Notes under the pieces: generated by a model
The model's database searches: none
What the model saw: the letters and a program-made list of their open reading frames with translations, nothing else
Told to the model about the DNA's origin: nothing
Position numbers and translations under genes: made by a program
Assembly (NCBI GenBank): GCA_010093515.1
Contig: MU001681.1
Location: 310,243 to 374,242, forward strand
Direction: 5' to 3'
DNA length: 64,000 nucleotides
From: Lineolata rhizophorae
Lineage: Eukaryota > Ascomycota > Dothideomycetes > Lineolatales > Lineolataceae
Shown: positions 17,115 through 63,960 of the stretch, one piece after another
Numbering within the stretch: the stretch's first letter is position 1
Layout of the letters: every line of letters begins with the position of its first letter

Positions 17115-17560
17115 AAGTCGGTATCTGATGAGCCTACAAACTAGTGCATAAATGAAATACAAACCAAAAAAAAGCAAGATCTTTTCTTCTTCAGACACTT
17201 GCACAAGGCAAGAAGAATGATGAAAATAAAAATGGTTCGCATCACTCGAGATAGTGCAATACGAGCGACACGGTGCCAGGGGAGATGAGCGAGCCCAGAT
17301 GGCTCCCCCGGCGGTTTCCAAAAACTGAAAACCGGACGATGCCGGCTTTTAAATTTAAAATGAAACTAATACTACACATTATGTCCCTCCACTTAGCAAA
17401 GCTAAGTGACAAAGCGAGGGATCATGGAGAAGGAAAAGAAAAAAGGAGGAATGGAGCATGTTTGGGGGGGTTTTTATACTCTGAGGGAGCGAGATTTTTC
17501 CGCTGCCGTCGCCCGGCATCACCGATGGCCCGACATATTATGTAACAGTGCACCAATGGT
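17115..17560 (-). repeat. TATA/hairpin dispersed repeat, copy D
   Basis: Read on the minus strand, this copy has a TATAAAAA box (17471-17478) followed by a C run and a long pyrimidine tract. Next is a strong stem (CACTTAGCAAAGCTAAGTG on plus, 17390-17408) enclosed by CCCTC/GAGGG (17385-17389 and 17416-17420). The conserved terminal hairpin is at 17198-17212, with CTTGC, loop CTTGT and GCAAG in sense. The same order occurs in three other copies near 59-63 kb. Boundaries are approximate. It may be a solo LTR or a structured transcript unit. Its flanking frame reads FHHSSCLVQVSEEEK across the hairpin, so a short peptide remains possible. Confidence 0.6.
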
Positions 17561-22400: not shown

Positions 22401-24463
22401 TCACACCTTCTCTTGCTGCTGGCCCTCGACGTGCGCGACGCTGCGCTTGCGCTCGGCCTGGGCGGCCGCGTCCGCGAGCGACATGCCACGCACATTTTCG
22501 CCAATCTGGTCGACGTCCTGGAACCTGATCTTGGGGCGGAACTCCTTGCTCTTCCAGGCCTTGTGCACCATGCCGTAGAGCTCGTCGACCTGCTCGAGCG
22601 AGAGGCCCTTGGTCTCGTAGATGAGGAAGAAGACGAAGGAGATGCAGACGAAGCAGAAGCTGGCCCAGATGAAGAAGACCTTGGACTGCAGGTTGGCGTT
22701 GCCCGGCCCGTCGTTGACGAGGTACGGTGTCGAGTAGGCGATGGCCCAGTTGAGCAGCCAGTTGGACGCCGTCGTCATGGAGAGACACTTGGCGCGCACC
22801 TTGAGCGGGAACAGCTCGCCCGTCACGACCCACGCCACCGGGCCCCAGGAGGAGGCGAAGAAGAAGATGTAGATGCACACGAAGGCGATGGCGGCCTTCT
22901 GGGCCGGCAAATTGGCGAAGTCGGCCGCCGTGCCCGTGATGGCGACGATGTACTGGCAGACGCACATGCCGACGGCGCCCATCAGCAGCAGGTTGCGGCG
23001 GCCCATCTTCTCGACCAGGTACAGGCCCGGGAAGGTCGAGGCCACGTTGACCGAGTTGGTGATGACCTGGATGATGAACGGGTTCTGGAACCCGGCGTTC
23101 TCGAAGTACTGCGTGCCGTAGTAGAAGATGAAGTTGACGCCCGTCAGCTGCTGCAGGGCTTGGAGGAGGCAGCCCGTGAGGAGACGCTTGCCGACGGTGC
23201 CTTTGAAGCACTCGATGTACGAGGCCTGCCCGATGGAGAGCTCATAGTGGTGGTTGGCCTGGATCTCGGCGAGCTCGTCGACGATGGCCGGGTCGGTGGG
23301 CGGGAGGCGGCGGAGCTTGCTTAGGGCCTTGGCCGCCTTGTCGTACTTGTCGCGCTTGATCAGGTAGCGGGGCGTTTCGGGTAGGATGATGAGGCCGATG
23401 ACCAGGATGAGGGACCAGGCGAACTGGACGGCGATGGGGATGCGGTAGGAGCCGCTGTCGTCGCGGTCCTTGGTGCCGTTGTTGACGATGGCGGCTAGGA
23501 ACAGGCCGATGGTGATGGCGAGCTGGTAGGCGCCGACGATGGTGCCGCGGATCCACTTGGGCGCCGTCTCGGACTGGTACATGGGGACTGCACACATGAC
23601 CTCTGTCAGCACTTGTCCCGGCCGAGCAATCGAAGGCGGCGAAATGCGCCAGTCGAGCGGCGGCCGATCTTAGCGCGGCTACATGCGGCTCGGGCCCGTC
23701 GCACGCGCTGGAGTCGTGGTTCCCCCGCGCCAACCCCGCCTGCGCCCGCAAGCCACTGACGAGGGCGGCGATCGACTCAAGGCGACGCCCAGGCCTGGCG
23801 CCGCGCCCGGCTCGCCCGGGCCCGGCAATCTTGCCGTAGACACGCTGCGTCTCGGCCAGACCGAACAAATGGACGACGAAACGTCGGGGCGATCTGGCCC
23901 CCCCGGCGGAACTTCTCAAGCCGCTCGCGCGCGTCACGGAATTGGTTGACTTACTCATTGCGGAGACAAGACCGACGCCCAGACCGGCGAAGAAGCGGCC
24001 GGCGATGAACATGGGCTGGCGCGTCGACGCCGTCTGGAGGATGACGCCGAGGTTGAAGACGAGTCCGGCCGCGGCCATCAGGCCCATGCGGCGGCCGAGG
24101 ATGTCGGCGAAGGGCGCGGCGAAGAGGGCGCCGAAGAAGGTGCCGGCCGAGAGGATGGACACGATCAGGGAGTCCTGGGCGGGAGTGATCTCGCCGTCGG
24201 GCTCTGTCGAGAACTCCCGCTTCCAGTAGTCCATGGCAAGAATGCCGGAGATCGTGCCGGTGTCATATCCGAAGAGAACACCACCGAAGGCGACGAAGAG
24301 ACCGATAACGATGGCGGGCCTGAACAAGTGTCCCAGTAGCGATTAGCAGTGCGATTCGTTTTTCTCCAAGACCTCAAATTTGAAAAACCCAACCGCCTAT
24401 GATCACTCACCAAGTCTTGCCCGCCTCGTCCGCGGGCTTCGTGAACATGAATTTGCCAGGCAT
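22401..24463 (-). CDS. MFS hexose transporter, 534 aa, three exons
   Basis: This is a plasma-membrane sugar/proton symporter of the major facilitator superfamily with 12 predicted membrane helices. Exons: 24463-24411 (MPGKFMFTKPADEAGKT), 24319-23955 and 23587-22401. Introns are 91 bp (GTGAGT/TTCAG) and 367 bp (GTAAGT/TGCAG). Family motifs are present: FGYDTG in helix 1 (34-39), GRRMG in the first loop, YQSETAPKWIRG (143-154), PETPR (209-213), QQLTG plus NFIFYYGTQYF in helix 7 (285-300), and ETKGLSLEQVDELY near the C-terminus. The second junction restores GLVSAM/IPMYQSE, as in related glucose transporters. The exact sugar cannot be read from sequence. The 367-bp second intron is unusually long and open in places. 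Confidence 0.9.
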
Positions 24464-29496: not shown

Positions 29497-31602
29497 CTAC
29501 CGTCTCTTCGCCTTGACCTTCCCTGTCACACTCCCATTCTGCGTCCCACGCCCAACCACAACCTTTGGATCCTTACCTTTCTTCCTTGCCGCCTTCTTCA
29601 GTGCGCGCTCAATATACACCCTATCCTCATCCTCATCCCAACCGCCAAAATCGTCTTCGACCTCCTCCTCACCCACCGGAGTCTTATCCACCTCACCATC
29701 CACGCCGACCCCGCCGCCGTTGACCTTCTGCCCATCTTCGGCACCCTCCTTCTTGCCCGTCGCCTTGACCGCTCCCCTCGGCGTCGGTCCGACCTTCTTC
29801 AACTTAGCCACGAAGAAGCCGTCCATGTTGAAGACGTGCGGGTAGAACCGCCTCGCCATCTTCATCTCCTTGCCGAACTTCTTTCCCCTGAACTCTACGA
29901 AGCCCTCGCGGCCCAACGGCAGTCCCGTGTCCATGAGCTTGACGTTGGGCCGCCTGCTCAGCGCGTATCGCACCACCTCCTCGTTCTCCTCGACCGCCAC
30001 GCTGCACGTCGAGTAGACGACGTACCCGCCCGTCTTGCTCCTGTGGTCCACGCTGTCGATGGCGGCGAGCAGCAGCTTCTTCTGCATGTGCGGCAGCCGG
30101 ACGAAGTCGAGCTCCGTCTTGTTCGTCTTGACGCTGGGATCCTTGGCAATGACGCCCGTGCCGCTGCACGGCGCGTCGAGCAGCACGCGGTCGAAGCCGC
30201 CGATGATCTTCGGGAACGCCTTGAGCGCGTCGTAGCTGCACACGATGGTGTTCCGGGCGCCTAGGCGGTGAATGTTGCCTACGAGCGCCGTGGAACGCTC
30301 CTTGTTTGCGTCGTTGGCGAAGATGCATCCCGTGTTGTGCATCAGCGCCGCCATGTGCGTCGTCTTGCCGCCCGGCGCCGCCGCCATGTCGAGCACGCGC
30401 TCGCCCTCCTGCGGCGCCAGTGCCATTACGGGCAAGAAACTCGCCGCAGCTTGTAGCATGTAGTGGCCCGCAAGATACTCGGGCGTCGCGCCTAGCGGCA
30501 CCGCACTCTCAAAGACTTGCAGCCCGACCTTGCTCCACTTGCCGACAGGCTCGAGCGACACGCCGCGGTTGATGAGGGTCTGCGCGAGAGCGCGCCGATG
30601 CGTGCGCAGCGTGTTGGTTCGCAGCACGACGGGGCGTGGGGTCTCGTTGGCCTCGAAGAAGGCGAAGGCTTCGCGAGGTGGGAAGAGGGAGAACAGCTTC
30701 TCGGCTAGGTGCGGCGAATAGCCGTAGTACGTAGAGATATCCTTGAGTAACTGCGCGATGTAGTCGGCACGCGACCGACCGGGCTCGCCCCGGCTAGCCA
30801 TGTCATCCAGCACACGTAGTGTGTCCGTGATGCGTGTGCGGAGAAGTTGTAGGTCGGGCGCGAGGTGCGCCGAGGGTTGGTCCTCGTCCTGGTCCTCCTC
30901 CTCCAGCACTTTGGGCCGGTCTCCGACGATGTTAGTCTGCATCGCAGCGTCATCGAGCTCGGCCTGCGCGTCCTCGGCTTCCTGGGCTAGCTTGGTGTCG
31001 AGTTTCCGCGAGAGCCCTTCAATATTAGCAGCGGTAAGCTTTTCCTCGGCGTCGTCTTCGTCCTCGTCCTCGGACCACATGTGAGCTCCGCGGCGAATGT
31101 CCTCCGCGTCGGAGTCTACAACTTCTTCATCATCCTCATCAAGAAAATTGTCCGCGTCGAGAGGGAAGGTGTCCGAATTGTCCAGATCGTCTTCACTGAG
31201 CTCGTCGAGATCGATATTACCACCGCTCAGATCATCCAAACCACCCTCCTCCGCCGACTCATCCTCCCATAGCGCCTCATCCTCATCCTCAGACTCAACT
31301 TCCTCCTCTTGCGCAGGTTTCTGGTTCCCGGTGCCTCTACCCTTGGACGCCTTCCTGCTAGCCTTTCCATTCGGAATCGCCTCCTGCCGCTTGCCGCCCT
31401 TTTCCGACGCGACCATCTCCTTCTTTCCTACACTTTTAACCGGCTTCTCCAAGTCATTCTTCAGATCCGCCCTTCTCCTCTTCTTATCCGCGAGCAGTTG
31501 CGGCTCCGGCACTGCAACGGCCGCCTTGCGTTTCCGGGTGACAAGCGATTCATCGAGCGGCGCAGGCGGGCCTTGCTTCTTCATGCGGCGGCCAGGACCC
31601 AT
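29497..31602 (-). CDS. NOP2: 25S rRNA (cytosine-C5)-methyltransferase Nop2, 701 aa
   Basis: Nop2 is a nucleolar m5C methyltransferase of the NOL1/NOP2/Sun family, needed for 60S ribosome assembly. It is a single exon. The N-terminus is basic (nuclear/nucleolar targeting), then strongly acidic at about 100-190. The catalytic domain follows: the AdoMet-binding motif DMAAAPGGKTTHM at 405-417, DAPCSGTG with Cys479, and YSTCSV with the catalytic Cys533. The segment FYPHVFNMDGFFVAKLKKV (about 586-604) is the typical end of the fold. A Lys-rich tail closes the protein. Length and domain order match fungal Nop2. It is divergent from GET5, with a 357-bp shared upstream region. Confidence 0.97.
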   Translation of the reverse strand: MGPGRRMKKQGPPAPLDESLVTRKRKAAVAVPEPQLLADKKRRRADLKNDLEKPVKSVGKKEMVASEKGGKRQEAIPNGKASRKASKGRGTGNQKPAQEEEVESEDEDEALWEDESAEEGGLDDLSGGNIDLDELSEDDLDNSDTFPLDADNFLDEDDEEVVDSDAEDIRRGAHMWSEDEDEDDAEEKLTAANIEGLSRKLDTKLAQEAEDAQAELDDAAMQTNIVGDRPKVLEEEDQDEDQPSAHLAPDLQLLRTRITDTLRVLDDMASRGEPGRSRADYIAQLLKDISTYYGYSPHLAEKLFSLFPPREAFAFFEANETPRPVVLRTNTLRTHRRALAQTLINRGVSLEPVGKWSKVGLQVFESAVPLGATPEYLAGHYMLQAAASFLPVMALAPQEGERVLDMAAAPGGKTTHMAALMHNTGCIFANDANKERSTALVGNIHRLGARNTIVCSYDALKAFPKIIGGFDRVLLDAPCSGTGVIAKDPSVKTNKTELDFVRLPHMQKKLLLAAIDSVDHRSKTGGYVVYSTCSVAVEENEEVVRYALSRRPNVKLMDTGLPLGREGFVEFRGKKFGKEMKMARRFYPHVFNMDGFFVAKLKKVGPTPRGAVKATGKKEGAEDGQKVNGGGVGVDGEVDKTPVGEEEVEDDFGGWDEDEDRVYIERALKKAARKKGKDPKVVVGRGTQNGSVTGKVKAKRR

Positions 31603-31959
31603 GACGGCAGCCGATCCTTTCCAAACCGAAAAGCCCTCCTCAAACCAAGAATTGGAAATTGAAGTGACTGGGACTGCGGGAGAAGCAGCAAAGAAAATTG
31701 CTCTTCTTCCGAGTAGCAGGGACCGGAAGTGCGCCCGAAAATTGCCCGCCGCGCAGAAAAAGTTCTCGGCTGCAGGAACGAAATGCCGGCCTTCACCGCT
31801 TTTCTCTTTGCGCCTAGACCGTATCCGGCTTAGCGTCGACGTTCTATCGACATGGCAATGCCAACCGCTCTACCACACCCGCATTCACAACCTCTCGCGC
31901 CGGGAGGTCCGTGTATCTCGCCGCCTTATGCTCGTCTCCATCGTCAGTCGCGAACAAAA
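31603..31959. promoter_or_regulatory. Divergent promoter region of NOP2 and GET5
   Basis: The two start codons are 357 bp apart on opposite strands, so promoters and 5' UTRs of both genes must lie here. An ATG at 31852 is in frame with GET5 and would add 36 residues. I prefer 31960 because its context is AAAAATGAC and the conserved protein begins there. Confidence 0.6.
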
Positions 31960-36218: not shown

Positions 36219-38156
36219 TTAATACATGCCTCCCATACCGCCCATGCCGCCCATGCCGCCCATCGGCGGGCCCCCCGCCGCCGGCTTCTCCTCGGGCGCC
36301 TCGACGACCGCCACCTCCGTCGTACCCAGCAGGCTCGCCACGCCGCTCGCGTCCACAAGCGCCGTGCGCACAACCTTGAACGGGTCCAAGATGCCAGCAG
36401 CGATCATGTCAACGTACTCGCCCTTCGCCGAGTCGAAGCCGCGGTTGAAGTCGCTTCCGAACTCGTCCATCAGCTTGCCCACCACGACGCTACCCTCGGC
36501 GCCCGCGTTCTCCACGATCATGCGCGCCGGCCGCGTGATGGCGTTGCGCACGATGGACACGCCAAGCTGCTGGTCGAAGTTGGCCGGCTTGACGCTGCCG
36601 AGCGCGTTGGCCGCCGCCTTGAGCAGGCCCGTGCCGCCGCCCGGCAGGATGCCTTCCTCGACCGCGGCACGCGTCGCGTTGAGCGCGTCCACGATGCGGT
36701 CCTTCTTCTCAGACACCTCCACCTCGGACGCGCCGCCCACCTTGATGACGGCCACGCCACCCGACAGCTTCGCCAGCCGCTCCTGCAGTTTCTCCTTCTC
36801 GTACTCCGACGTCGTCGGGTCTGCCATGACGCCGCGGATCTGCTCGCAGCGTTGCGCCACCGCGTCCTTGGACCCTTCGCCGTTCAGAATCACCGTGTCC
36901 TCCTTCGTGATGGTGATGGAGCCCGTGGAGCCGAGCATGTCAGGCGTGACGCGCTCAAGCTTGATGTCGAGCTCATCGGTGAAGACGGTGCCGTTGGTGA
37001 GCACCGCCAGGTCGCCCAGAATGCTCTTGCGGTTGTCGCCGAAGCCTGGCGCCTTGACGGCTGCCACCTGCACCTGGCCGCGCAGCTTGTTGAGGATGCA
37101 CACGGCGAGCGCCTCGCCCTCAATATCCTCGGCCACCACGACGAGCGGCCGGCGCAGCTGCTGCGAGATCTCTAGGGCGGGCACGATGTCCTGGACGGCA
37201 GAGATCTTCTTCTCCGAAAGCAGCATAAGCGGCTTCTCGAACTCGACCTTTTGGGCCTTGGCGTCGGTGATAAAGTAAGGCGAGATAAAACCACGATCGA
37301 ACTTCATGCCTTCGGTGACCTCGAGCTCGTCCTCAATGGTCTTGCCCTCCTTGACGGTGATGACGCCCTCCTTGCCGACCTTCTCCATGGCGTTGGACAG
37401 CAGCTTGCCAATGTGCGTATCGCCGTTCGCCGAGATGGTCGCCACTTGCGAGATCTCCTCCGACGTGGTGATGACGCGCTTGTTCTGCTGGAGGTAGTCG
37501 ACGACAGCATCCACGGCAGACTGAGTCCCACGGCGCAGGTCCATTGGGTTGCAGCCAGCGGCCACGTTCTTCACCATTTCGGAGAAGATCGCACGCGCAA
37601 GCACTGTGGCGGTCGTGGTGCCGTCACCGGCTACCTCGTTGGTCTTAGAGGCGACGTCCTGAAGCAGGCGCGCGCCCAGGTTCTCGAACTTGTCCTGGAG
37701 ACTTATCGCCTTGGCGACGGTGACACCATCTACGAGGAGACTCGTTAGTATCCTTATGAGATGCGACAATGCGGTTAGGCACGAGGGCGTTGGGTACCTT
37801 TTGTGATCTTGGGCGACCCGTAGCTTGATTCGATCAACACGTTCCGCCCCTTAGGCCCCAGTGTTGTGGCGACGGCCTTGGAGAGCGTCTCAACTCCGTT
37901 CAGCAGCGATGCACGACCCTCGACGCCGAACTTGAGCTCCTGTACACCCCAGCAATGTTAGCTTCCGAACAAGACCGGCAGCAACGCATGCCGCTGAATC
38001 CCCAATTCAAGTCTAATCACCCATCCCGACGCTTGATATATTGAGGCGTACCTTGTGCGCGAACCGCTTTGACGTGAGGTTGAAGCTCGACTGCCGTATC
38101 CGGGAGCTCGAGGAGAGGGCCGTTGCCCGAGCTCTGGAAGCCAACGCCCGCTGCAT
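36219..38156 (-). CDS. HSP60: Mitochondrial chaperonin Hsp60, 585 aa, three exons
   Basis: Hsp60 is the group I chaperonin of the mitochondrial matrix, folding imported proteins with Hsp10. Exons: 38156-38052, 37939-37798 and 37729-36219. Introns are 112 bp (GTACGC/TACAG) and 68 bp (GTACCC/CGTAG). The coding total is 1,758 nt. Exon 1 encodes exactly the 35-residue Arg/Ser-rich targeting sequence ([20 protein letters not shown]...), and the mature protein starts at ELKFGVEGR. Nucleotide-binding motifs [20 protein letters not shown] and [12 protein letters not shown] are intact, and the tail is the GGM repeat ending MGGMY. Length and order match the family. Confidence 0.98.
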
Positions 38157-40210: not shown

Positions 40211-42541
40211 TCAATCGTTGCTCCAGAAAAGGTTCTCTTCGCCGTCAAAAGAAGGGAGGCCTCCAGCAAATGGGAATTCAAAGTTGTACATTTGGCTATC
40301 GAAGTAGCTCATCCCATGATCGTTGACGTCCATACCTTCTCCAAAATCCGGAAATTCATCTGGATGGTAGGTGTTGTCTAGAGTATCGGAAGCCACCGGT
40401 AGAGTCGTATCAAGAGCAGAATTCGCGACGAATGCGTCATTAGTTTGGATGTTCGGCGCATTCATAATTGGTGACATGTGCTCTGGAAGATTATTCTGAG
40501 GAGCCATGAGCTGCGATGGTGCAATAGTGCTCACAGGCGGAGGTTGAGGTGTAGAAGAAGCCATTTGCTGCATCATTGGGATCGAAGCAGTATCCTGAGT
40601 GAAGAATTCATTCGTCGGTCCCTGAGCGACTGAAGGTTCAGACGTGTTGATAGAAAGAGATTGCATCGCCTGAGAAGCTGTAGGAGGCAACATAGAGTTG
40701 ACCGGACCAGAAGTAGCGGTTGTGGCCGTTTGGAAAGAGATTGAAGTCACAGGGCCATTTGCAGGAGTTGAAAAAGCGCCTCGAGCCTTGTTGTTTCCTC
40801 GACGCTTCTTCTTGTTCTGAATCTCTTTGACAAACGGGTGGTCTTCTTTGATAACCACGCACACGTATTTGTCAGACGTGTTGTCAATAGGGCCGACTGA
40901 TGCTGTCCCATAATGATGAATTCCAGAGGCGCTGTAACGGTAAAACGTCTCGATCTCCACTGTATGAGGATTCACCATAACTTGACCAGGCTTGATACCA
41001 GGAGATAAAATAATGACTGCAGCTTGATCATCGAGTGTTTTCAGGTCAACTGGACCATTATTCTTGACTTTAACCCACTTGCCAGCTGTGAGGCATTGAC
41101 CCATCCTTGAGCGCTTGTTCTCCCGAGTTTGTTCATCCATACGAGATGCGATGAATGACTGAATATACTCAAGCAGGCACCGGCTATTGTTTGAACCTGA
41201 TGACACATAAATTAGTATATGGTCTTTAGATCGGGATGAACACATATTATCTTTAGTTACCTTCAAGTTGCGGACGTGACAGCTTTGGTAGAATAGGGAC
41301 TGATGAATAGGTTGAGACAGCCAATCCAGTTTGAGGCGCGATACTGGACATGTCATGCGAAAAACTGTTGGAGTTTTCCACTTGATCATCGCGGCGCGCC
41401 CTCTTGAGGGGATTTTGAGTCCAAAGAGAGTCGTCATTACCATTAGCATCCTCGAAGTCGGGATCAGAATCGGAAGGCAATTCAATGACTCCAGACCCCT
41501 GAGTAAACGCATCTTTAGCCATTTTCTGTATCTTGGCCTCAGCACTCCGCTTAGCCTTGCGCTTTAAGGACATTTCACCAAGATTTTGAGAATGCGTCCC
41601 ATCGGTAGACGGAACGCCCTCCGAGAAGTTTCCATGCGGTGTAGAGATCTTAGGGCCTGTAGTTTGGTTGATTAAGGATGCCCTGGAGCCACCAATCATT
41701 GAAGAGGTAAGATCGGCGGTTCGAGAATGATAATTGCCTTCATGAGAACGCGGAAATAGGCCAGGCATGGGGGAACCGAATGAGCCACCAAAAACTTCGG
41801 GACCAGCAGCGGTAGCAACACGACGAGCAGTAAATTGCGGTTCAATTGTACCAGCAGTGAGAATGGCGCCAGTAACATCACGAGGCTTCGATGAAGAGTG
41901 ACGAGACGCATACGTTTGACCAGCAGGCTGTTGTCCTGACTGATTGTCACTCATGTGTGGCTGCAAGTTCGGCTCTTGGAATGTGAAATTTTGGCGACCG
42001 CGTGAAAACCCCGTGGTATCATGTTGCATAGGTGATGGCGCATTCCGAAATAGGTTGGGATTCTTCTTGTGGAATTGCTCCGGGCAAGGCTTCCCCGAAA
42101 TCGCGCGCCGAGCAGCCAGTTTCCGTGTAGCTTGGTGTAATGCATCCGCCGTAGTCGTTGCATTGACGAAACGCGCAATCTTGTCCCAGTCGAATTCTGG
42201 ATGCTTTTCGCGAATTTCAGAATAGAGAGCCAGTACCAAGCGCTCGCGCGCTTCATCTATGAAGCGACATATTAGTATGATATTTAAGAATAAATTTGAA
42301 AGCGGAAATGGCGATATTTACCGTCCCAAGTTTGGATAGAACGAACTGAGGCGCGGTTGGACGTATCGTAGCGACGTCGAGACCCATTTTGGTTTTCACT
42401 GCCATCCGCAGTTTGGTTATCGCTGGCGGGAGCTTGTGCGATAGGAGCTTGAACGTGTTCGAGTGGAAATTCGTATTGCATGTTGTTGTCAAACTGAGCT
42501 CCAACACCCTCGAGAGGGTCTTGAAATTGGGTGAAATTCAT
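40211..42541 (-). CDS. SANT-like nuclear protein of unknown role, 733 aa, three exons
   Basis: Exons: 42541-42322, 42256-41261 and 41196-40211. Introns are 65 bp (GTAAAT/CATAG) and 63 bp (GTAACT/ATCAG). The spliced frame totals 2,202 nt. After a Gln/Asn-rich start, residues about 68-125 (TWDDEARERLVLALYSEIREKHPEFDWDKIARFVN...TRKLAARRA) look like the SANT/Myb-like helix bundle used in many fungal nuclear proteins. Basic clusters follow (LKRKAKRSAEAKIQ; NPLKRARRDD) with an acidic patch between them, consistent with nuclear targeting. Later, a compact region (KWVKVKNNGPVDLKTLDDQAAVIILSPGIK...) may be a second fold I cannot name. The C-terminus is Ser/Thr/Gln/Pro-rich and ends acidic and aromatic (PDFGEGMDVNDHGMSYFDSQ), like an activation domain. 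A transcription regulator is a reasonable guess. Confidence 0.75.
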
Positions 42542-52576: not shown

Positions 52577-54142
52577 TCAGCCTTTCTTCGCCCTTTTAAA
52601 CTCCTTTTCCCTTTCGCGCGGATCATACACCACCAACTCCTCCTCATTCTTCCTCTTCCACTCGAGATCCTTGCCTAGCCTATCTTTCGCAAAGGACAGC
52701 TTATGCGCCAACCAGCTCATATCATCCTCGTCCTCATCTTGGCCTTCCTTCTCCGCCTCGTCCCATGCACTACACGACTGGCAATTCGCAATGAAGTGCA
52801 AATCGCACAATTTAGCATCCGGATCGTCCTCATCCAAGTCTTCAGCGGCCGCCTTCTCCGTCTCCTCCTTCTTCTTGCCCGCCTCCCGCCCCTCCACATC
52901 CATCTTGTCCTTCCCTGTCGGTTTCTCCCTAGCCGCCTGCGCCGCAACCAATTTCCTGCGGAACGCGTCGAGCTTGGCCAGAGATTCAGCCTCCTCGGCG
53001 GCCGTCTGCGCCTTCCCACGCTTGCGCGCCGGCTTCGAGTTCTTGGGCGTCCAGGCGTCGCGCGCCGACGGCTGCTTCTTCTGCGATGTAACTTCGTTGC
53101 GGGGGAGTCCTGCGTCGCGGCGCATGCTGGCCATGAGCTCGGCAATTTGCGCGTTGGTACGGTCGAGGCGGGAGGGCTTGCGTTCGGAGACTGAGAAGGA
53201 ACTAGAGTCGGATGAGGAAGACGGTGAGCGGGAGCGAGATGGGGAACGGCGTTTGGACGAGGTGGTCGGCAATGGGAGCTTCGTAGATTTACGCGGAGGG
53301 GCAGCGGGCGAAGGTGAGCGCGAGAGCGAGGGTTGGCGTCTGGATGGCTTCTCGACGGGCTTAGGGGCAGTTTTGGATTCTGGCGCACGTGACGCAGCCA
53401 AAGAGTGTTCGCTGTCTTTCTTCTCGCCCCCGGCTACGAGCAAGGGGTTAAACTTCGGCTTCTTAACAACCGGGACTGCCAGGTCCCCCTCGTCCCCTTC
53501 TTCGTCGGCGCCAAAGCTCAACAACGCCTTTCCGCCTTTCTTCTTCTGCTTCTTCTTCGCGGGCTTTTCCTCGCCCTTGCTAGGTTTGACTTCTTCCTTC
53601 TTGACCATGTCCTCGAAAGGATTGACCAGGATCTCCGCGCCAGTGATCCTCGTCGGATAAAGTGGCCTATCCCCTCCTTCCTCGGCCAACTCCGCCTCGC
53701 CCATCTTTGCGACATTGTAAATCGTATCGCCTTCCACCCTGCCAAACAGCGTGTTCTTGCCCTGCAACTCCGGCGTCGAGCCGAGGGTAATAAAGAACTG
53801 GCTACCATTGTCGTCCTTGCGGCCAGTGTTCGCCAGGCCCAGCTGGCCCCGCCGATTGAACTTCAGCCGCGAGTGAAACTCGTCTTTGAAGGGCTCTCCG
53901 CCATTGTAAACGCTCACGCCGCCCGCGCCCGTGCCCGTTGGGTCGCCGCCTTGCAGGATGAAGCCCGGCACCAGCCGATGGAACACGGTGTTGGTATAGT
54001 ATCCATCGAGACAGTGCTGCAGGAAGTTCCGCGTCGCGAGCGGCGTCTGCTTGCCGAAGAGTTCGAGGGAGATATCGCCGGAGGTCGTATGGAGCACAAC
54101 TTTGGCCGTGGGTGGCGGTTCGAGGTTGTACATGGAAGACAT
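52577..54142 (-). CDS. CWC27: Spliceosomal cyclophilin Cwc27-like, 521 aa
   Basis: Cwc27 is a cyclophilin-fold subunit of the activated spliceosome. It is a single exon. Residues 10-180 are the cyclophilin domain (VFHRLVPGFILQGGDPTGTG with Arg56; DNGSQFFITL). At the position of the active-site Trp of cyclophilin A there is Glu125 (TPELQGKNTLFG), the substitution known in Cwc27 that goes with lack of prolyl isomerase activity. The rest is charged, low complexity and Ser/Arg-rich (about 270-330), then coiled-coil-like, ending with the conserved DMSWLAHKLSFAKD and KEFKRAKKG-type tail. The second Met (residue 4) is an alternative start. It is divergent from ALE1 over 635 bp. Confidence 0.93.
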   Translation of the reverse strand: MSSMYNLEPPPTAKVVLHTTSGDISLELFGKQTPLATRNFLQHCLDGYYTNTVFHRLVPGFILQGGDPTGTGAGGVSVYNGGEPFKDEFHSRLKFNRRGQLGLANTGRKDDNGSQFFITLGSTPELQGKNTLFGRVEGDTIYNVAKMGEAELAEEGGDRPLYPTRITGAEILVNPFEDMVKKEEVKPSKGEEKPAKKKQKKKGGKALLSFGADEEGDEGDLAVPVVKKPKFNPLLVAGGEKKDSEHSLAASRAPESKTAPKPVEKPSRRQPSLSRSPSPAAPPRKSTKLPLPTTSSKRRSPSRSRSPSSSSDSSSFSVSERKPSRLDRTNAQIAELMASMRRDAGLPRNEVTSQKKQPSARDAWTPKNSKPARKRGKAQTAAEEAESLAKLDAFRRKLVAAQAAREKPTGKDKMDVEGREAGKKKEETEKAAAEDLDEDDPDAKLCDLHFIANCQSCSAWDEAEKEGQDEDEDDMSWLAHKLSFAKDRLGKDLEWKRKNEEELVVYDPREREKEFKRAKKG

Positions 54143-54777
54143 GGCGGCAGATCTAGGCGTTAATCGGATGGATAACGGCGTGTAGGTTAAGTGGGTGGAT
54201 CGGGGAATCTGCGGTCACGAGCCGTAGACTGATAGGCTCTTCCACGGCTGGCTTCGGACTGCGTAGTTCCTTCTAGCTTGTGGCGATGATTCCACGGCAG
54301 CGGAATCGCCGGGCTCACCAATGCCAGACGCCACAGCGGCCACCCGGATTCGGTCGAATGGAGCTAGAACCCACCAGGCTGAAGCACGCGGGTCATGAGA
54401 AGACTGCGCTCATGACTTTGCGACTGCGTTCCTCCCTTAGGGCTGAGGCAAAAATAAGCTTTTGGGTCCTCGCGCTACATTTCGCTAAGCGTTGCCAGGG
54501 TGGTGAGCCACTCGGAACTCTAGATCCGTGCACGGTCCCGAACCGACGTCACCAGATCGCTGCACCTGGCGTCGCAAAAAGCTCGTTCGCATCTGCCAGC
54601 TGCGCTCAGCCGGAGCAAATTAATACCTGCTTGCCTGCCCTTGCATGATGGAGCGGCATTCTGTCCCTTTGTGAAGGCGTCCATTGCAAGCTCTTATCAG
54701 TCTGCTTTCCTTTTTGCTACCCTCGCAGCCTGTGATATCTCTCACGAAGCCCGCTGGCGCTTTGGCGCATCACCACC
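54143..54777. promoter_or_regulatory. Divergent promoter region of CWC27 and ALE1
   Basis: 635 bp separate the two start codons. No gene lies between. The ORF-like frames here do not resemble proteins. The ALE1 ATG sits in the context CACCACCATGC. Confidence 0.5.
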
Positions 54778-57081: not shown

Positions 57082-59190
57082 GCTTTGGATGCTGGGATGG
57101 GATGATAGAGTTTGAAAAGGGGCTGGGTTCCAATAGCGTAGATTGGTGTATACATGGTGAGGGGCGCGTCTGACGGGGTCCGAGGCAGAAATACTATTTT
57201 TATACAGTCGTCTTTGGGCTCATATATGAGTAAGTTGATACGCGTTTAACGCAGCGTACCTGTTCTACATAGCAGAATATTCAACATACTTCGATCGAAA
57301 CTTTAACAACTTGCAAATAAATAGATATTGGATGTCAAAAGATCCTATGTGGTTCGATTTGCGTTGTTATCCTGCCAAATATTGGAAGTCAGAGACAAAT
57401 TTACTTCCCCAACGAAGTTACTCATGCATACTAGTAGACACGAGAGCTTTCAAGAGTAAGCCTCGTCACCTTTAAAATTTCTATCTCCACGCCATCCTGT
57501 TGCCCAACAACTCGAGTGTCGCAGATGGCCATAACTGGCCGGATATCTCCATAACTGCACAACCATATCTCTTCGTAGCAAAATGTAGTATACCTTTCGA
57601 GCACCGACCGAGCAAAGGGTTCTGTACATGGTATCGTAATGGTATCTTCTCTCTGTTAGCGAAGAGGGTTTGTAGCAACTATTCAGTTTCAAAGTTAGTG
57701 TTGATACTTTTGAAGATCAATCATAAGCTTCAAGAAACCAGAAAATTCTCCATCAACTCACCACAAAAAACATGAGGCCAGAAGCACGACGGCCCAGTAA
57801 CGGTAGTGTATGAGCAGGCTGAGGTTGCGACGCAATATGCTTTCGGAGTGTTCATGTTATTGTAGTCTCATATATTGTAGGTCGTGATCGTCTCGTCCGG
57901 TCTCTTCAAAGGAGACGCTCAATCACGACGCGGGTGGCAATAATCAACGCAACTGCCATATGCAGGCAGCATAATATAAAGACTCTGACTGTATATCTTC
58001 CGTGGTAATCTCTATGTCCTGTACTACGACAGGGGGGCACAGAAGTAACATTTGTGCAATTTGAAGCAAATGTGTGTCCGAAGGTGGTAGGCGGAGGAGG
58101 GCTCCCTGCAATAGCTGTCTCACAAAATCTCCCGTTAGTCTGGCATGAAGGCATAGAACTGCAGAATGTAGAGGAACAGCTTCTAACCTGCGAATATTGC
58201 CACGTCGGATGAAAGACACGCCGTCCGCACCACCTACGACAACAGTTGTAGCTAGGGTTTATCGCTCTCCAAGTGATAGCCTGTGTACCTGTTCCACGAT
58301 TTGTCTAATTAGCATCCGAAGGTAGAAGTCTTGGGAGCCGCGTTTGGCGATGATTCGCAAACGGAGGAGCGCTTACACCTGTCGCCATAAGCCAGGTTAC
58401 AACTGGCCGTCCACACTTATTGGAAATGTCCACAAGTAGTAGGCAAGGCTAAGGTGGTCAAAATAGGTTCAAGTTGGAGTATTAAGTATCTGCATATCGT
58501 AACCCGTGAAAACTAACCGAGCCCAGAAGTTTTGGGGAGAGTAGCAATGGTTGTAGGCGACATCTGGCGTCTTGTAAGCGTATCGTCATAGTGCAAGGAA
58601 GTAAGCCTACCAACATGGAAGGACCATCGACTGTCTTTCATTGTCCAGGTTACCTCGTGGTGTTGATGTTACTTTGTCAAACCCTCTCTCGACGCGTGAA
58701 CGAGCGCCCGTTACGATCGCTGACTCCAGCGCAAACTGGGCAATGTTGGAACAGTGTTCCACAACACCAAGGCAAATTAGGTGCTAATGCGACCCCCTCG
58801 TGCGGGAGAGATTCTCGATGATGCTTCGTCACAGAAGGTACCAAGATTGTCACGATTCCAGGAAGTGTTCAATACCCTTACTCCGGCCTAAGCTCCGCCT
58901 ACGTGGAAGTTTACGAGGAGGGGGTGACTCCAGAAAATCGCCTAGGCGTCTAACCGTCTAGGACGTATCATGTACAACAATATTAATGCACTATCTTGTT
59001 GGTGGGGGGTGGGGGGTTCCTGCACATAATTGCGTTGACACGCTGGTCGGGCAACTTCTGTGGAGGCCACCACCACGACTTCCCGACACATCGTAAGCCT
59101 TCGCCACTTGCTTCCCCACTAGCATTTAGTTACAATCGTTACAATAACAGAAGACTATATATAGCTATAACAACATAAAATTGAACTCAA
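57082..59190. other. Gene-poor region after ALE1
   Basis: The ALE1 3' UTR is expected at the start. No further supported gene. A minus frame at 57906-58154 has a hydrophobic stretch near its end but no family resemblance and is not called. Confidence 0.5.
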
Positions 59191-59199
59191 TATGTGCTA

Positions 59200-59530
59200 T
59201 ACCAAGACTGTAGGTTGTACTTTACTGTTTACCAACAACTTGGTGTTATTGATCAAAGTAAATACTATTTCTTCTTTACATACCGGCACAAGGCAGGAAG
59301 AGTAATGAAAAAAGGAGGTTTTTTGGACATCAAAAATTATGCCGTTCAAGCTACTCATGAGCTTCGCAAAAACAGCTGTGTTGATTTGGGGAGAGTTGGA
59401 AAGGATAGGAGAGGGGCTCCCCAAAGCAAACCAACTTACCCTCACTCTAGATAGAGTGGTATGAGAAGAGAAGAAAGGAGGAAAAAGTTAGGTGTCTTGG
59501 GGTTTTTATACCTTTGGGGAAGAGGTTTCC
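59200..59530 (-). repeat. TATA/hairpin dispersed repeat, copy A
   Basis: On the minus strand: GGTATAAAAACC (59501-59512), a pyrimidine tract, a perfect 7-bp stem (CACTCTAGATAGAGTG, 59443-59458), further short stems such as GGGG/CCCC, and the conserved hairpin at 59283-59297 (sense CCTGC, loop CTTGT, GCCGG). It has the same element order as copies B, C and D. It faces away from copy B, with about 190 bp between their TATA boxes. A frame across the hairpin reads FHYSSCLVPVCKEE. Boundaries are approximate. Confidence 0.6.
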
Positions 59531-59544
59531 GGCACGGCGCGGTA

Positions 59545-59682
59545 GGTTGATCCGAGTACGTAAGCGTGATCCAGAAACAGCGTGAATATTCATTTGCAGC
59601 GTGATCTAGACAAGCGAACGGCAAGCGAACGGCAAGGTTGATCTGAACCCCCCCCCCCCCCCAAGTGTTTGGCGTGATCTGA
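59545..59682. promoter_or_regulatory. Cluster of GSKTGATCYRR motifs between two divergent TATA boxes
   Basis: Five related 11-mers (GGTTGATCCGA, GCGTGATCCAG, GCGTGATCTAG, GGTTGATCTGA, GCGTGATCTGA) start at 59545, 59564, 59599, 59636 and 59672, all in the same orientation. An 11-bp unit AAGCGAACGGC is duplicated in between, and a C run lies at 59647-59662. Their place between two divergent TATA boxes suggests factor-binding sites, but no factor is identified. Confidence 0.5.
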
Positions 59683-59689
59683 GTGCAAT

Positions 59690-60185
59690 TCCTGCTCGCG
59701 CGGGGTATAAAAACCCCTCCTAGGTCGCGACTTTAACCTTTTTTCTCTTTTTCTCTATCTGTTCTCTAACGTCCTGTAAGCCACAATATTCATAGACCGC
59801 ATTTGAGCATGCCGTCCTGTGCTTAAAGGGAGCCAACACGTCTCAGACCCGGACATCTATTGTTGGTTACTGGGTGGGCGGCAAAGGTAGTATCAGGGCG
59901 GGCACAGAACCAAGCAGGCTGGAAGCCGGCGAGTCCGGTGGTCCGCGTGGACCCTCCTGTTGTGGTTGTCCGGGGGAGGTGCCCTTTTGGGATGCCGAGA
60001 TTGTTATTTGAGGAAGGCGGCAGAGCCTAGCTCAAACGCGAAAATTGACTGTTGCTAAGGTGATTGCATCATCTTAAGAACTATGAAGATGGTGCGGCCT
60101 ATATGCCAACATACATTCCATTTGTTTTTTCATCACTTCTCTTGCCTTGTGCAAGTGCTTGAGGAAGAAGCGTTTCGGCCCGTGA
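59690..60185 (+). repeat. TATA/hairpin dispersed repeat, copy B
   Basis: GGGGTATAAAAACCCC contains the TATA box at 59706-59713. It is followed by a CT tract (59738-59765). The interior has a perfect GGTCC-GCGT-GGACC stem near 59940-59953 and a 10-bp stem GCATCATCTT/AAGATGGTGC at about 60066-60095. The conserved hairpin CTTGCCTTGTGCAAG is at 60141-60155 and is followed by TGCTTGAGGAAGAAG. The interior differs from the other copies while both ends match. Confidence 0.6.
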
Positions 60186-62120
60186 TAGAACTATATCTCC
60201 CATAGATACTTATCTAAGCTTGAAACCTAGTAGGGCGATTTTATTATGCTCTAATGTAGCGCAGCTAGGCCCTGGTGTAGTTAGATGGATGCCGAATACC
60301 AACGTCCTCTCACGAGGAAGGCGGAATGCATTACTACCCTTCAGCCCTCTCTGTTGTTTCTCCTACTAACGTACACAAAGTGGCAAAGTCGTCCGGTTTC
60401 ATGGGTTATGGCTGGAGCCCGCAAACTTTCAGGCTCGTTTTATCTTAACGTTCACAGATAACATCATAACTCTCCCAAGTCGTAACCGCCAAGGCAGATA
60501 TTCCTACGATTCTTAGTCCGATAGTCCGCAAACTACCATTACGCGATAGGTAAATGAGATTTAGCGTGTTTCAAGCTTCTTCGGCAATAAAATTATGCCT
60601 TTCAGCTCCAAGATGAGGGATTTTTCAACGCTCACGACCGATTCCAGATCACGCCTCTCCCAGCCATCGCTTCCTTAGTTAGCGCTAACCTTTGCTCTCT
60701 ATTTCAGTAGGTGCCTACATTCTCGACGTTAATAATGGCAACATCTATGCTTCGCCACTGGCAGTCCTATTCACCTATTCGCTTTCTTAGAGCGTCCAAG
60801 TCACGCAGTGGATACTTGACCTTCTTTTGGATTTTCCATTGGCCTGGCACACAGTATGCATAGCCCAGACGTGCGCAGCAGTAGACGATAATCCTCATAC
60901 AATGCCAGGTTCGTCTAACTGCCCAAAAATGGCTTGATACTGAAAAGGACGAAGGTATACAGCGACGCCCTACCCGGAGAACAACCACGCCCGAGAAGGC
61001 TCAAAACAAGGAATCAAGGATATGGAGAAAGAATAAGGCATGGCTGCGCTTTGATTGGGGTCTGAGGGCCTCTATTTGTGGATTGCCGGCGTCGCTGCGA
61101 TCTGTATGATGAGATAAAGCATGGGCATTGCTAGCTAGACAGTGATCCAAGCTTATCTTACGTCCCGTTGCAGAGGCATGACAAGACATAAGATACATAA
61201 AACTCTTTAGTACTAAGCCAGAGGCCCATAGAACTTCAATCCCACAAAATCTATATGAAGTAGCTAGACACTATAATATCCTATTGGTCAAAGACTTCAG
61301 GGTGATGATGAATCATATCATTTAGACTTGTCCAATTTTTGAGGGCTTCGTAAATAGAATAGTAGGAACAATTTTCTAGCTGTTGTATGAGCTACTCAGC
61401 AACTTATGGCAAATTTCGATGTGAGTGTTAACTCAATTTCATGCCTGGTTACTTTTGGTACCGACGATTCCATAGCGTTTAGGTCCGGTTTGCATGACTC
61501 TGTTGCTACATTCACCGTGCTCAACACCAACGCTGGCCAGGTTCTACACGCAAATAAGTGCGTAGAAAGCTTACGTGGTCCGCTTGGAATCTTCCTCAGA
61601 GTGACTAGATCAATACCAAAGAGGGGAACAAAAACTTAAGGAAGTCGAGAAACTTTGGATCGTGGGGAACTATACATATAGTCGCAAGCAACAAACATAC
61701 TATATGCATAAAGCACTTTTAATGGTTTCACCTATCTATTCAAGACTTCTACTTCACGATGACTAAGGTTGGACAGAGTTTCATGGGAGTAAATAATTTC
61801 ATCACAACAGGGTAATATTCTAGAATGTTGTCTTCAGGAGAACAGCCACCATATACCCAAAGCACCGCCCCCAGTAAGATCAGTTAGAGCGGAAATACAT
61901 AGATATCGTTATTTCAACGGCCTACTAAAGACGAATGATAAAGAGAATAGGCCCTACCATCAACAATGGTGCAACTTTTTCGTGGTGTGTAATTTCAAAC
62001 GTAAGATCAGCACCTTGAAATAACTTCTATCTAAGATAGCATGAAACTTTCTCGGTGCAGCAAAGCCCCAAGGTCCTAGGTCAAATAGCCCGGACATGAA
62101 ACCGAAATCAGTTTGGGCGA
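60186..62120. other. Gene-poor intergenic region
   Basis: No supported gene and no repeat beyond the neighbouring copies. Stop codons are frequent in all frames. Confidence 0.5.
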
Positions 62121-62125
62121 AACCA

Positions 62126-62192
62126 GCGATCAAAATCATCGGTGCTCCGATCAACGGCCAGATCAACAACCCAGATCAACCAACAAGATCAA
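62126..62192. promoter_or_regulatory. Cluster of GATCAA motifs upstream of copy C
   Basis: Five GATCAA motifs have their GATC cores at 62128, 62149, 62161, 62174 and 62187, the last four spaced 12-13 bp. The reverse complement of the fourth (GGTTGATCTGG) is nearly identical to the motif upstream of copies A and B. The cluster lies about 200 bp before the copy C TATA box. Confidence 0.45.
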
Positions 62193-62453
62193 GAAGAGCC
62201 TCCTAGCACGCTTTGCCCGATTCGGTAAAGTAATACCAGGGTCTGATGAGAAGAGCCCAAATCACCCAAGCGACGACCCAGTAGAATCGTCACTTCCAAA
62301 TCGGGAGTTAGTGCTCAACTAGGTCAGGCTACTATTGCAGGCCTTAGTAAGCGTTGATATGGGCACGCAGAATCTCGAGGCTTAGGCTATAAAGGCCCCA
62401 AAAGGGTCGCCCCCTTCACTCCTTTTTTTCTCCTCTTCATACCATCGCGCGGT

Positions 62454-62771
62454 GGGCGTAGCAAGGTTAGAGTCTGGTTTGTGGATAGTCCTGGAAGAGA
62501 CGAGCACCACCTATTGGCGTGTGGATAGTTCTGGACGAGACGAGCACCATCTTTTGGTGTGTGGGTAGTCCTTGAAGAGACGAGCACCACCTTTTGGTGT
62601 GTGGATAATCTTGGAAAGGACGAGCACTACCTTCTGGTGTGTGGATAGTCTTGAACAGGATGAGCACCACCTTCTGGTGTGTGGATAGTTTTGCAAAGGG
62701 CGAGCACCGCCTTCTGGTGTGTGAATAGTTCTGAAAGGACGAGCACCGCCTTTCTAAACCTTGCTATGCCC
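62454..62771. repeat. Inverted repeat enclosing the hairpin array
   Basis: GGGCGTAGCAAGGTT (62454-62468) and AACCTTGCTATGCCC (62757-62771) are complementary at 14 of 15 positions, the exception being a wobble-compatible pair. They sit immediately outside the tandem units, so a transcript could fold with the whole array as a multi-branched loop. Confidence 0.75.
62475..62756 (+). repeat. About seven tandem 40-bp units with internal inverted repeats
   Basis: The unit is GACGAGCACCACCTTTTGGTGTGTGGATAGTCTTGGAA-like. Each holds a CACCA...TGGTG stem with a 4-6 nt loop. Variants are mostly single substitutions, several of which keep pairing through G-T wobble. The period of 40 is not a multiple of three, so a coding origin is unlikely. 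Confidence 0.8.
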
Positions 62772-62880
62772 TAAAATGGACACTTAAATTTTGGAGCCCG
62801 GGCAGGGACAAACACACAACCCTTTTTCATCATTTTTCCTGCCTTGTGTAGGTATTTGAGGAAACTCAGGCATTATATGC

Positions 62881-63960
62881 ATCTAATGTTGTTGGTAACT
62901 GGTAAACTAGAAAGTGTTACACAATGGAATCCCTCAAACTGAGTTGCTACGTATACCTTCAAGCATGTTGTTGCTAGAGGAAACAAATATATTGCCTCTT
63001 ATATTCTCGTACAGAGTCTGTATGGTGGCGCGGGATAGAGTCTATCGTGCGCGTACGGCCTTACGCTAAGCGGATTGTCTTACAACGACTTTGTTTATCG
63101 GACGCAACATGGTGGCGAAATCATCATCACATAGCCTATGAAGACCAAGCGCCCACGAACGTATACAGTTTAATCGTCGCGAAAACTTTCCGTCAAATAT
63201 ATGAACGAAATTTGCCTTTGGAGTAGCAACAGCGGCGTTTGGATGTTTAGAGTGGCGTTCGCGCGATGCGTCAGTGACATGCATTGCACCAAAGCAGAAC
63301 GGAGATAGGAAGTAGAATGCAGGATCTTCTTCTTCCACCACTATTTCCTTTCATGTATCCTAATCTTTAGTCTTGTAAATAGAGCGATACACGATGGTCG
63401 TTGGTAGTTGTTAGTAGGATATTCTGGGACTCAAGCAAAGACAGATTTGCGTCGCCAGTGGCGCAGGTTACCCATCGTAACCTTGTGCTAGAAATATCGT
63501 CATCTAAGACATAGACAGATGATTATACCCTTAAATGACTCAATATCGACCAGGTATGTTCAGGCAAGTCAAAGAAGCAGTATAGCGGCGTAGTATTATG
63601 AGTTGAAGCATATGGCGTGCTTGCGACGCCGTCTCCGTGTCCCGTATCACGAGTCCGAGTCATCATTCGCCTCGCCATATTCGTAGATGCGTTGAAGATG
63701 CAAAAGTTTTACATTCTTTTAATCTAGAAGCGTGGAAGGTCCTTTTTCGCTGCAGTTACTCGAGGGCAGCGTATGATCTCGGGCAGGTGTGTTAGTGGCG
63801 CCCTTCGTCGAAAGGGTGGGAGAATATAGTTAGCAGGCAGAACGGCAACATCTGTTTACGCGCCTTTCGCCGGAAAAGAGATCGTCTCAGGCATGGACAA
63901 TATCAAAGAGAGTAGAACTGAAGCCTAGCCTAATTCTCAAATGAAATCTCTATTAACGTG
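62881..63960. other. Gene-poor region to the window end
   Basis: No supported gene. The 91-codon minus frame at 63066-63341 shows no recognisable features. Confidence 0.5.

Follow-up and report, generated by a model that had tools for sequence, protein, structure and literature searches.

The hairpins of the window

The window described here is a stretch of 64,000 nucleotides (nt) from the fungus Lineolata rhizophorae, contig MU001681.1. It corresponds to C12:310243-374242 of the genome that was scanned, which comprises 31 Mb in 48 contigs. The window contains four copies of a conserved hairpin, and this hairpin and the genes that precede it are the subject of the analysis. In each gene, a TATA box and a pyrimidine tract precede a predicted RNA of about 150-380 nt, and the hairpin comes last. 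The genes are referred to by the window position at which the hairpin begins: 17226(-), 59311(-), 60127(+), and 62824(+).

Hairpin copies 1 and 2 lie on the minus strand (17184..17226 and 59269..59311), and copies 3 and 4 on the plus strand (60127..60169 and 62824..62866). All four had been used in building the hairpin model, with which they score 76.9 bits (E 2.5e-15), 64.9, 66.4, and 60.3 bits. When the window is searched with this model at E up to 0.9, these four places are found, with E between 2.5e-15 and 2.2e-11. Each hairpin is 43 nt long, with three stems and a 5-nt loop. The outermost stem is UUUUC/GAAGA, the next is UCA/UGA, and the inner stem has five pairs.

Only the inner stem and the loop had been recognised in the original prediction, which was partly confirmed. 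The four 15-mers of stem, loop, and stem are present where it placed them (minus strand at 17198 and 59283, plus strand for the remaining pair), the loop is CTTGT in all four, and the stem sequences are correct. A paired change from T-A to C-G was also claimed, and it extends beyond the window, since the pair is CG in 21, UA in 9, and GC in 2 of 32 genome copies. In contrast, the sense pattern TTTTCATCAYTYTTC, thought to be common to all four copies, is exact only in 62824(+) and 17226(-) and has one mismatch in each of the others; a proposed peptide frame, discussed below, also fails.

The TATA boxes are found at 17471..17478(-) for copy 1, 59510(-) for copy 2, 59706..59713(+) for copy 3, and 62388..62394(+) for copy 4, each followed by its pyrimidine tract. 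They precede the start of the hairpin by 252, 199, 421, and 436 nt, close to the 220-455 that had been predicted.

Position after small nuclear RNA genes

Searches of the whole genome with Rfam families find 16 loci for the small nuclear RNA (snRNA) U2, 7 for U1, 1 for U4, and 1 for U5. These and all other copy numbers given here are lower bounds. The seven U1 loci score 54.8-65.1 bits, all below the gathering score of 69.5, and all seven begin with ATACTTACC. The U5 match (L054; C6:729465-729571, minus strand) has AT-rich DNA immediately upstream.

The hairpin model places a hairpin on the 3' side of all 16 U2 loci, of the U4 locus (E 0.0059), and of six U1 loci. Four of these six matches are strong (E up to 2.8e-7) and two are weak (L050, E 0.022; L047, E 0.62); in the seventh U1 locus, L049, the hairpin was recognised by eye only. 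Six of the U2 loci were first found via their hairpins and were used in the model. The other ten U2 loci, the seven U1 loci, and the U4 locus were found without the hairpin and provide an independent test of the association.

At least 32 hairpin copies are present in the genome, of which 24 come after a U2, U1, or U4 found by Rfam. The alignment of these copies contains 31 model hits and L049, which was added by eye; a wrong-strand hit of 17.1 bits in L046 was dropped. Twelve of the 32 rows had gone into building the model.

A simple pattern search gives a similar picture. With up to 3 mismatches, a 29-nt hairpin pattern has 23 matches in the 31 Mb and its reversed control has none. Thirteen matches lie after an Rfam U2, four after an Rfam U1, two after U1-like genes (window 59311 and L086), and four after bodies without an assigned family (window 60127, window 62824, L004, and L041b). 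The bare 15-mers are nonspecific at up to 2 mismatches (72 matches versus 54 in the control, and 135 versus 67).

In the 14 U2 genes measured (all 16 but L045 and L046), a spacer of 4-35 nt separates stem IV from the hairpin. When the fetched stretches are compared pairwise, similarity begins about 70 nt before the RNA and extends no further than the end of the hairpin.

At the level of sequence, these comparisons show an RNA hairpin positioned after U2, U1, and U4 genes, with a longer shared promoter in part of the genes. The hairpin is probably an element that flanks snRNA genes of the RNA polymerase II (Pol II) type on their 3' side and is likely cut by ribonuclease III (RNase III), and each window copy would end a separate snRNA-type gene; this reading is given a probability of about 0.82. 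As a common 3'-end mark of the U1, U2, and U4 genes found here, the hairpin is a handle for snRNA-type genes that similarity searches miss. Searching with it has already yielded genes without an Rfam match.

Structure and covariation

The 13 pairs of the hairpin are well maintained. Across the alignment of 32, standard pairs form in 97.8% of cells, compared with 93.0% in shuffles and 53-60% in slid controls. Two-sided changes occur in 25 cells versus 5.8 in shuffles, and the covariation score is 0.284 versus 0.177; none of 500 shuffles reaches either observed value. Variants of the inner stem include, among others, CTTGC/GCAAG, CCTAC/GTAGG, CGTGT/ACACG, CCTGT/ACAGG, and CCCGC/GCGGG. The loops (for instance CTTGT, CTTGA, and CTGGT) have the approximate form CUNGN, with a G that is invariant in 32 of 32 copies. 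Because the stem changes are two-sided, the hairpin is a conserved RNA helix under selection.

The promoter

A promoter pattern, GAAACTTCNTCGNCAAAGGTATAWAAAC, has 19 matches genome-wide with up to 3 mismatches, against none in the control. A hairpin gene comes after sixteen of these, among them the matches at window 59311 and L004. In the window, the match covers 59502..59529(-) and includes the TATA box of copy 2 (C12:369744-369771(-), 2 mismatches).

Three further promoter loci, L087 at C9:764223(-), L088 at C13:688752(-), and L089 at C9:825767(+), have no Rfam match. The promoter of L089 runs into GC-rich DNA.

The four window genes

17226(-). At the gathering threshold, Rfam finds one match in the window, a U2 (RF00004) at 17231..17418(-), which ends 4 nt before hairpin copy 1 and scores 48.2 bits against a gathering score of 46. 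This gene is a highly diverged U2. It retains GTGTAGTAT and the half with the Sm site, stem III, and stem IV, while the remaining 5' half is replaced. Compared with canonical U2, the 3' half has a z score of 15.7 and the 5' half one of 2.3; apart from GTGTAGTAT, the canonical 5' half (stem I, GAUC, and the branch-site loop) is absent from 17231-17418.

59311(-). The body at 59313..59462(-), whose ends are approximate, is a U1-derived RNA. Its part from the Sm site to the hairpin matches three U1 loci by blastn, and it retains the U1 segment around that site, CATAATTTTTGATGTCCAAAA, with an Sm-like site AATTTTTG at 59331..59338(-). The 5' end is ATACCACTC instead of ATACTTACC, and the 5' half has a z score of -0.3.

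60127(+). This is the weakest of the four genes. Its 370-nt body (59753..60122(+), approximate ends) has no Rfam match, no Sm-like site was found in it, and its folding energy is ordinary.

62824(+). The body at 62440..62820(+), again with approximate ends, contains head-to-tail 40-nt repeats enclosed by a long closing stem, in which about 17 pairs can be counted by eye. These repeats (family D3; 62475..62754(+)) amount to seven units by spacing. They are followed by an Sm-like site, AAATTTTGG, at 62786..62794(+), and then by the hairpin. The site stands after a long stem, and the RNA may be of the Sm class.

The last two are snRNA-type genes with bodies that match no Rfam family. Relative to single-letter shuffles, the folding z scores are -3.8 for 17226, -3.7 for 59311, -4.1 for 62824, and 0.08 for 60127.

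Relatives with a replaced 5' half

Diverged genes of this kind also exist outside the window. L057 (C12:260879-261250) is U2-like by blastn, with a replaced 5' half and no Rfam U2 match. L008 is also U2-like by blastn, yet has no Rfam U2 match. L086 (C9:747300-747580) is U1-like, again with a replaced 5' half, and scores 40.7 bits with Rfam U1.

The divergence is uneven along the gene. Promoter, 5' half, Sm/3' domain, and hairpin were compared separately for two diverged U2 copies (17226 and L057) and two diverged U1 copies (59311 and L086), using 6 of the 16 U2 and 4 of the 7 U1 genes as references; L008, L004, L041b, 60127, and 62824 were left out. The best z scores of the four copies against canonical genes are 5.7-11.6 for the promoter, -0.3 to 2.6 for the 5' half, 6.4-17.2 for the Sm/3' domain (only 23-37 nt of which were compared in the two U1 copies), and 8.7-14.0 for the hairpin. 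In the ten canonical reference genes, the 5' half has z scores of 10.6-25.1. Because such uneven loss is hard to reconcile with plain decay, it suggests that transcription, assembly into ribonucleoprotein (RNP), and 3' processing are still under selection in the diverged copies, without this being proof of function.

The four window copies could instead be decaying, functionless snRNA pseudogenes, an explanation that is unlikely but has several points in its favor. Many eukaryotes carry snRNA pseudogenes. The Rfam U2 score of 17226 is scarcely over the threshold, no Rfam match exists for 59311, 60127, 62824, or the U2-like L057 and L008, and three promoters lack a convincing hairpin. Partial gene conversion, which may be an alternative cause of the uneven divergence, or recombination could leave one half conserved. 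However, plain decay should be even, whereas the four tested copies lose similarity in the 5' half but retain it in the promoter, the Sm/3' domain, and the hairpin. In addition, 17226, 59311, and 62824, though not 60127, have bodies that fold more stably than shuffles.

Two other hairpin genes may be described here. L041b (= L007 1483-1533 (-), C9:788745(-)) is a short gene in which a long 5' stem is followed by AACTTTTTGG, a 3' stem, and the hairpin; it folds with a z score of -4.3, and its layout is that of an Sm-class RNA. L004 (C13:961925-962690) is a gene of about 650 nt that has an snRNA promoter and the hairpin and contains GGAATTTTTGG internally.

An altered branch-site recognition sequence in seven U2 genes

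The sequence with which U2 recognises the branch site is changed in part of the family. In seven of the 16 U2 genes (L034, L035, L036, L037, L038, L042, and L043, on contigs C8 and C13), GAAGTA (RNA GAAGUA) replaces GTAGTA (GUAGUA). Eight other genes have GTAGTA, and L046 has GCAATA. In a tree computed with the branch-site columns included, a branch with support 98/96 separates the seven genes from the rest.

In five of the seven genes the arms of stem IIa change together, giving AATCAG/CTGATT, AAACAG/CTGTTT, or ATACAG/CTGTAT versus the canonical TTTCAG/CTGAAA. In L042 and L043 the stem contains a mismatch, and only 5 pairs form. The arms were fitted in 15 U2 genes (all but L045), and in L039, L041, and L044 the fit differed from the stem taken as IIa. 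Judged by these changes, the U2 genes of the altered clade look constrained.

The perfect pairing partner of the altered sequence would be UACUUAC. Introns of the form GTAAGT..GCTAAC..CAG number 165, versus 27 in the control. Such GCTAAC branch sites, and the genes the window contains, would fit a filamentous ascomycete. With an altered branch site between GTAAGT and CAG there is no clear excess: GCTTAC gives 27 (control 20) and ACTTAC 28 (control 22). Because ACTTAC is the reverse complement of GTAAGT, some of its places count on both strands. No class of CTTAC introns that would match the altered clade is visible in this count, which is limited to GTAAGT 5' splice sites and which small classes would escape.

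Among the open-licence literature matches listed, in part the best matches only, nothing was found on a conserved 3' hairpin of filamentous-fungal snRNA genes, or on any fungal U2 clade with an altered branch-site sequence.

A tentative proposal, for which the case remains rather less than even, is that the genome encodes an enlarged set of Sm-class RNPs. These would be built on a U1 or U2 chassis with 5' halves for new targets, and the GAAGUA clade would provide a second U2 snRNP (small nuclear RNP) with a different branch-site preference. The chassis set would take in window 17226, window 59311, L057, and L086, and perhaps 62824 and L041b. The family forms a natural series of snRNAs that share the half for RNP assembly and differ in the guide half. 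With the diverged relatives and the altered U2 clade, it can be tested directly whether a fungus has U1 or U2 snRNPs of more than a single kind.

Proposed formation of the 3' end

The hairpin is most likely a co-transcriptional RNase III site, which is the best-supported reading, with the cleavage itself being putative. The hairpin would fold in the nascent RNA, where an RNase III of the Pac1/Rnt1 type would cut it during transcription. The cut would free the precursor, and the short remaining tail (4-35 nt in U2) would be trimmed to the mature 3' end; a spacer of this length is as expected of a trimmed tail. The same cut would help to end transcription by the polymerase.

Three genes with RNase III domains are found in the genome. 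Two have paired domains, and their proteins appear Dicer-like by domain layout. The third is a single-domain candidate at C12:5300-6440, which matches the RNase III chains 7dey, 4oog, and 5t16 of the PDB over its catalytic and C-terminal parts; we take 4oog and 5t16 to be yeast Rnt1.

A precedent can be found in fission yeast. There, Pac1 is described as associating with the U1, U2, U4, and U5 genes, and hairpins are predicted directly downstream of these genes (PMC8421224). When Pac1 is kept out of the nucleus, polymerase accumulates downstream of the snRNA genes (PMC8421224). The same paper gives a helix minimum of 20 nt for Pac1, with bulges tolerated, and stems of 23-32 nt in fission yeast (PMC8421224).

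Several observations weigh against an snRNA 3' element cut by RNase III. Five pairs show a two-sided change, a number reached in 25 of 500 shuffles and also by the +2 slide; further pair types number 17, which 33 of 500 shuffles reach. Among the four window genes the promoter pattern matches only 59311, and 17226, 60127, and 62824 have a TATA box and pyrimidine tract only. Within roughly 700 nt of the promoters L087-L089, the best hairpin candidate reaches 7.9 bits (at L087), and none is convincing. An Rfam search of 58900-63400 at E up to 5 gave no match, which leaves 59311, 60127, and 62824 without a family. The single U5 hit has neither an snRNA-type promoter nor a hairpin by the model; a second U5 gene may have been overlooked, or U5 may use other signals. 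With 13 pairs spread along arms of some 18 nt and interrupted by internal loops, the helix seems to fall short of the 20-nt Pac1 minimum. Finally, both expression of the RNAs and cleavage of the hairpin are inferred from the DNA.

Alternately, the element might act as DNA, or as a protein-bound analogue of a 3' box, without RNase III, for instance through Integrator-like or Nrd1-like machinery. Conservation is high at single-stranded positions and in part of the loop (the G in 32 of 32 copies), beyond the apparent need of a plain RNase III helix, and the AGNN tetraloop is missing. This explanation is nevertheless improbable, since the two-sided changes in the stems reveal selection for an RNA helix, and the fungal precedent is RNase III (PMC8421224).

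Repeats and peptides

The original prediction had considered a family of solo long terminal repeats (LTRs), in which the TATA box and pyrimidine tract would be a U3/R promoter and the hairpin an R/U5 structure. Both promoter features are present, and the copies are dispersed and divergent, many of them in AT-richer DNA. However, 24 of the 32 copies follow U1, U2, or U4 genes recognised by Rfam, and in the stretches compared the similarity is limited to the snRNA transcription unit, ending at promoter and hairpin instead of running along a whole element. Solo LTRs are thus very improbable, and for the U1, U2, and U4 copies they are refuted by the snRNA bodies and, in those stretches, by the dissimilar flanks.

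Least credible is a conserved peptide, FHHxSCLVxV. In 20 of 32 copies its frame runs through the first 12 codons without a stop, but it is refuted by stops within those codons in the other 12, 1-nt length changes in some copies, compensatory stem changes, and the position after snRNA genes, and the open frame is a by-product.

A structured transcript had been the other original interpretation. Covariation over the 32 copies bears this out, but the hairpin does not define an independent family of undescribed transcripts, being the 3' element of snRNA genes. The LTR reading was wrong and the RNA reading right in kind; in its probable role the hairpin is a variant of a known snRNA 3'-end signal.

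Other features of the window

The window also contains ordinary genes. These encode a sugar transporter (22401-23669 (-)), an RsmF-like methyltransferase (29497-31869 (-)), a Cpn60-type chaperonin (36219-37850 (-)), and a cyclophilin (52577-54214 (-)). Long open frames without a Pfam match are found at 14533-15831 (-), 40211-41563 (-), and 41253-42317 (-).

A check for repeat-induced point mutation was mixed by the usual thresholds of its indices. Of 16 blocks, each 4 kb long, 4 have a TpA/ApT of 0.89-0.97, and the second index is never below 1.02.

Comparison with known systems

Metazoan 3' box. In metazoans, a short conserved element after the snRNA genes, the 3' box, specifies 3' ends together with Integrator. 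Unlike the 3' box, the element described here is a covarying RNA hairpin.

Rnt1 hairpins of budding yeast. The 3' hairpins of budding yeast snRNAs that are cut by Rnt1 have the same position and presumably the same role. Rnt1 substrates carry an AGNN tetraloop, which is not present in the loops of the 32 copies; these have a loop of approximately CUNGN with its invariant G.

Pac1 hairpins of fission yeast. As in the hairpins described in PMC8421224, the element is directly 3' of Pol II snRNA genes and has a small loop, and an RNase III of the right layout is encoded. Unlike those hairpins, it is one sequence-conserved 43-nt element common to U1, U2, U4, and their odd relatives. Its helix is shorter and has internal loops, the U5 hit is without a hairpin, and cleavage is putative.

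Sets of snRNA variants. Several divergent copies of one snRNA are also reported for human variant U1 genes and Drosophila snRNA isoforms (PMC5159530, PMC4291461). What sets the present family apart is that U2 has the most copies among those found (16 versus 7 of U1), that a clade of U2 genes has an altered branch-site recognition sequence, and that the 5' half has been replaced in some copies.

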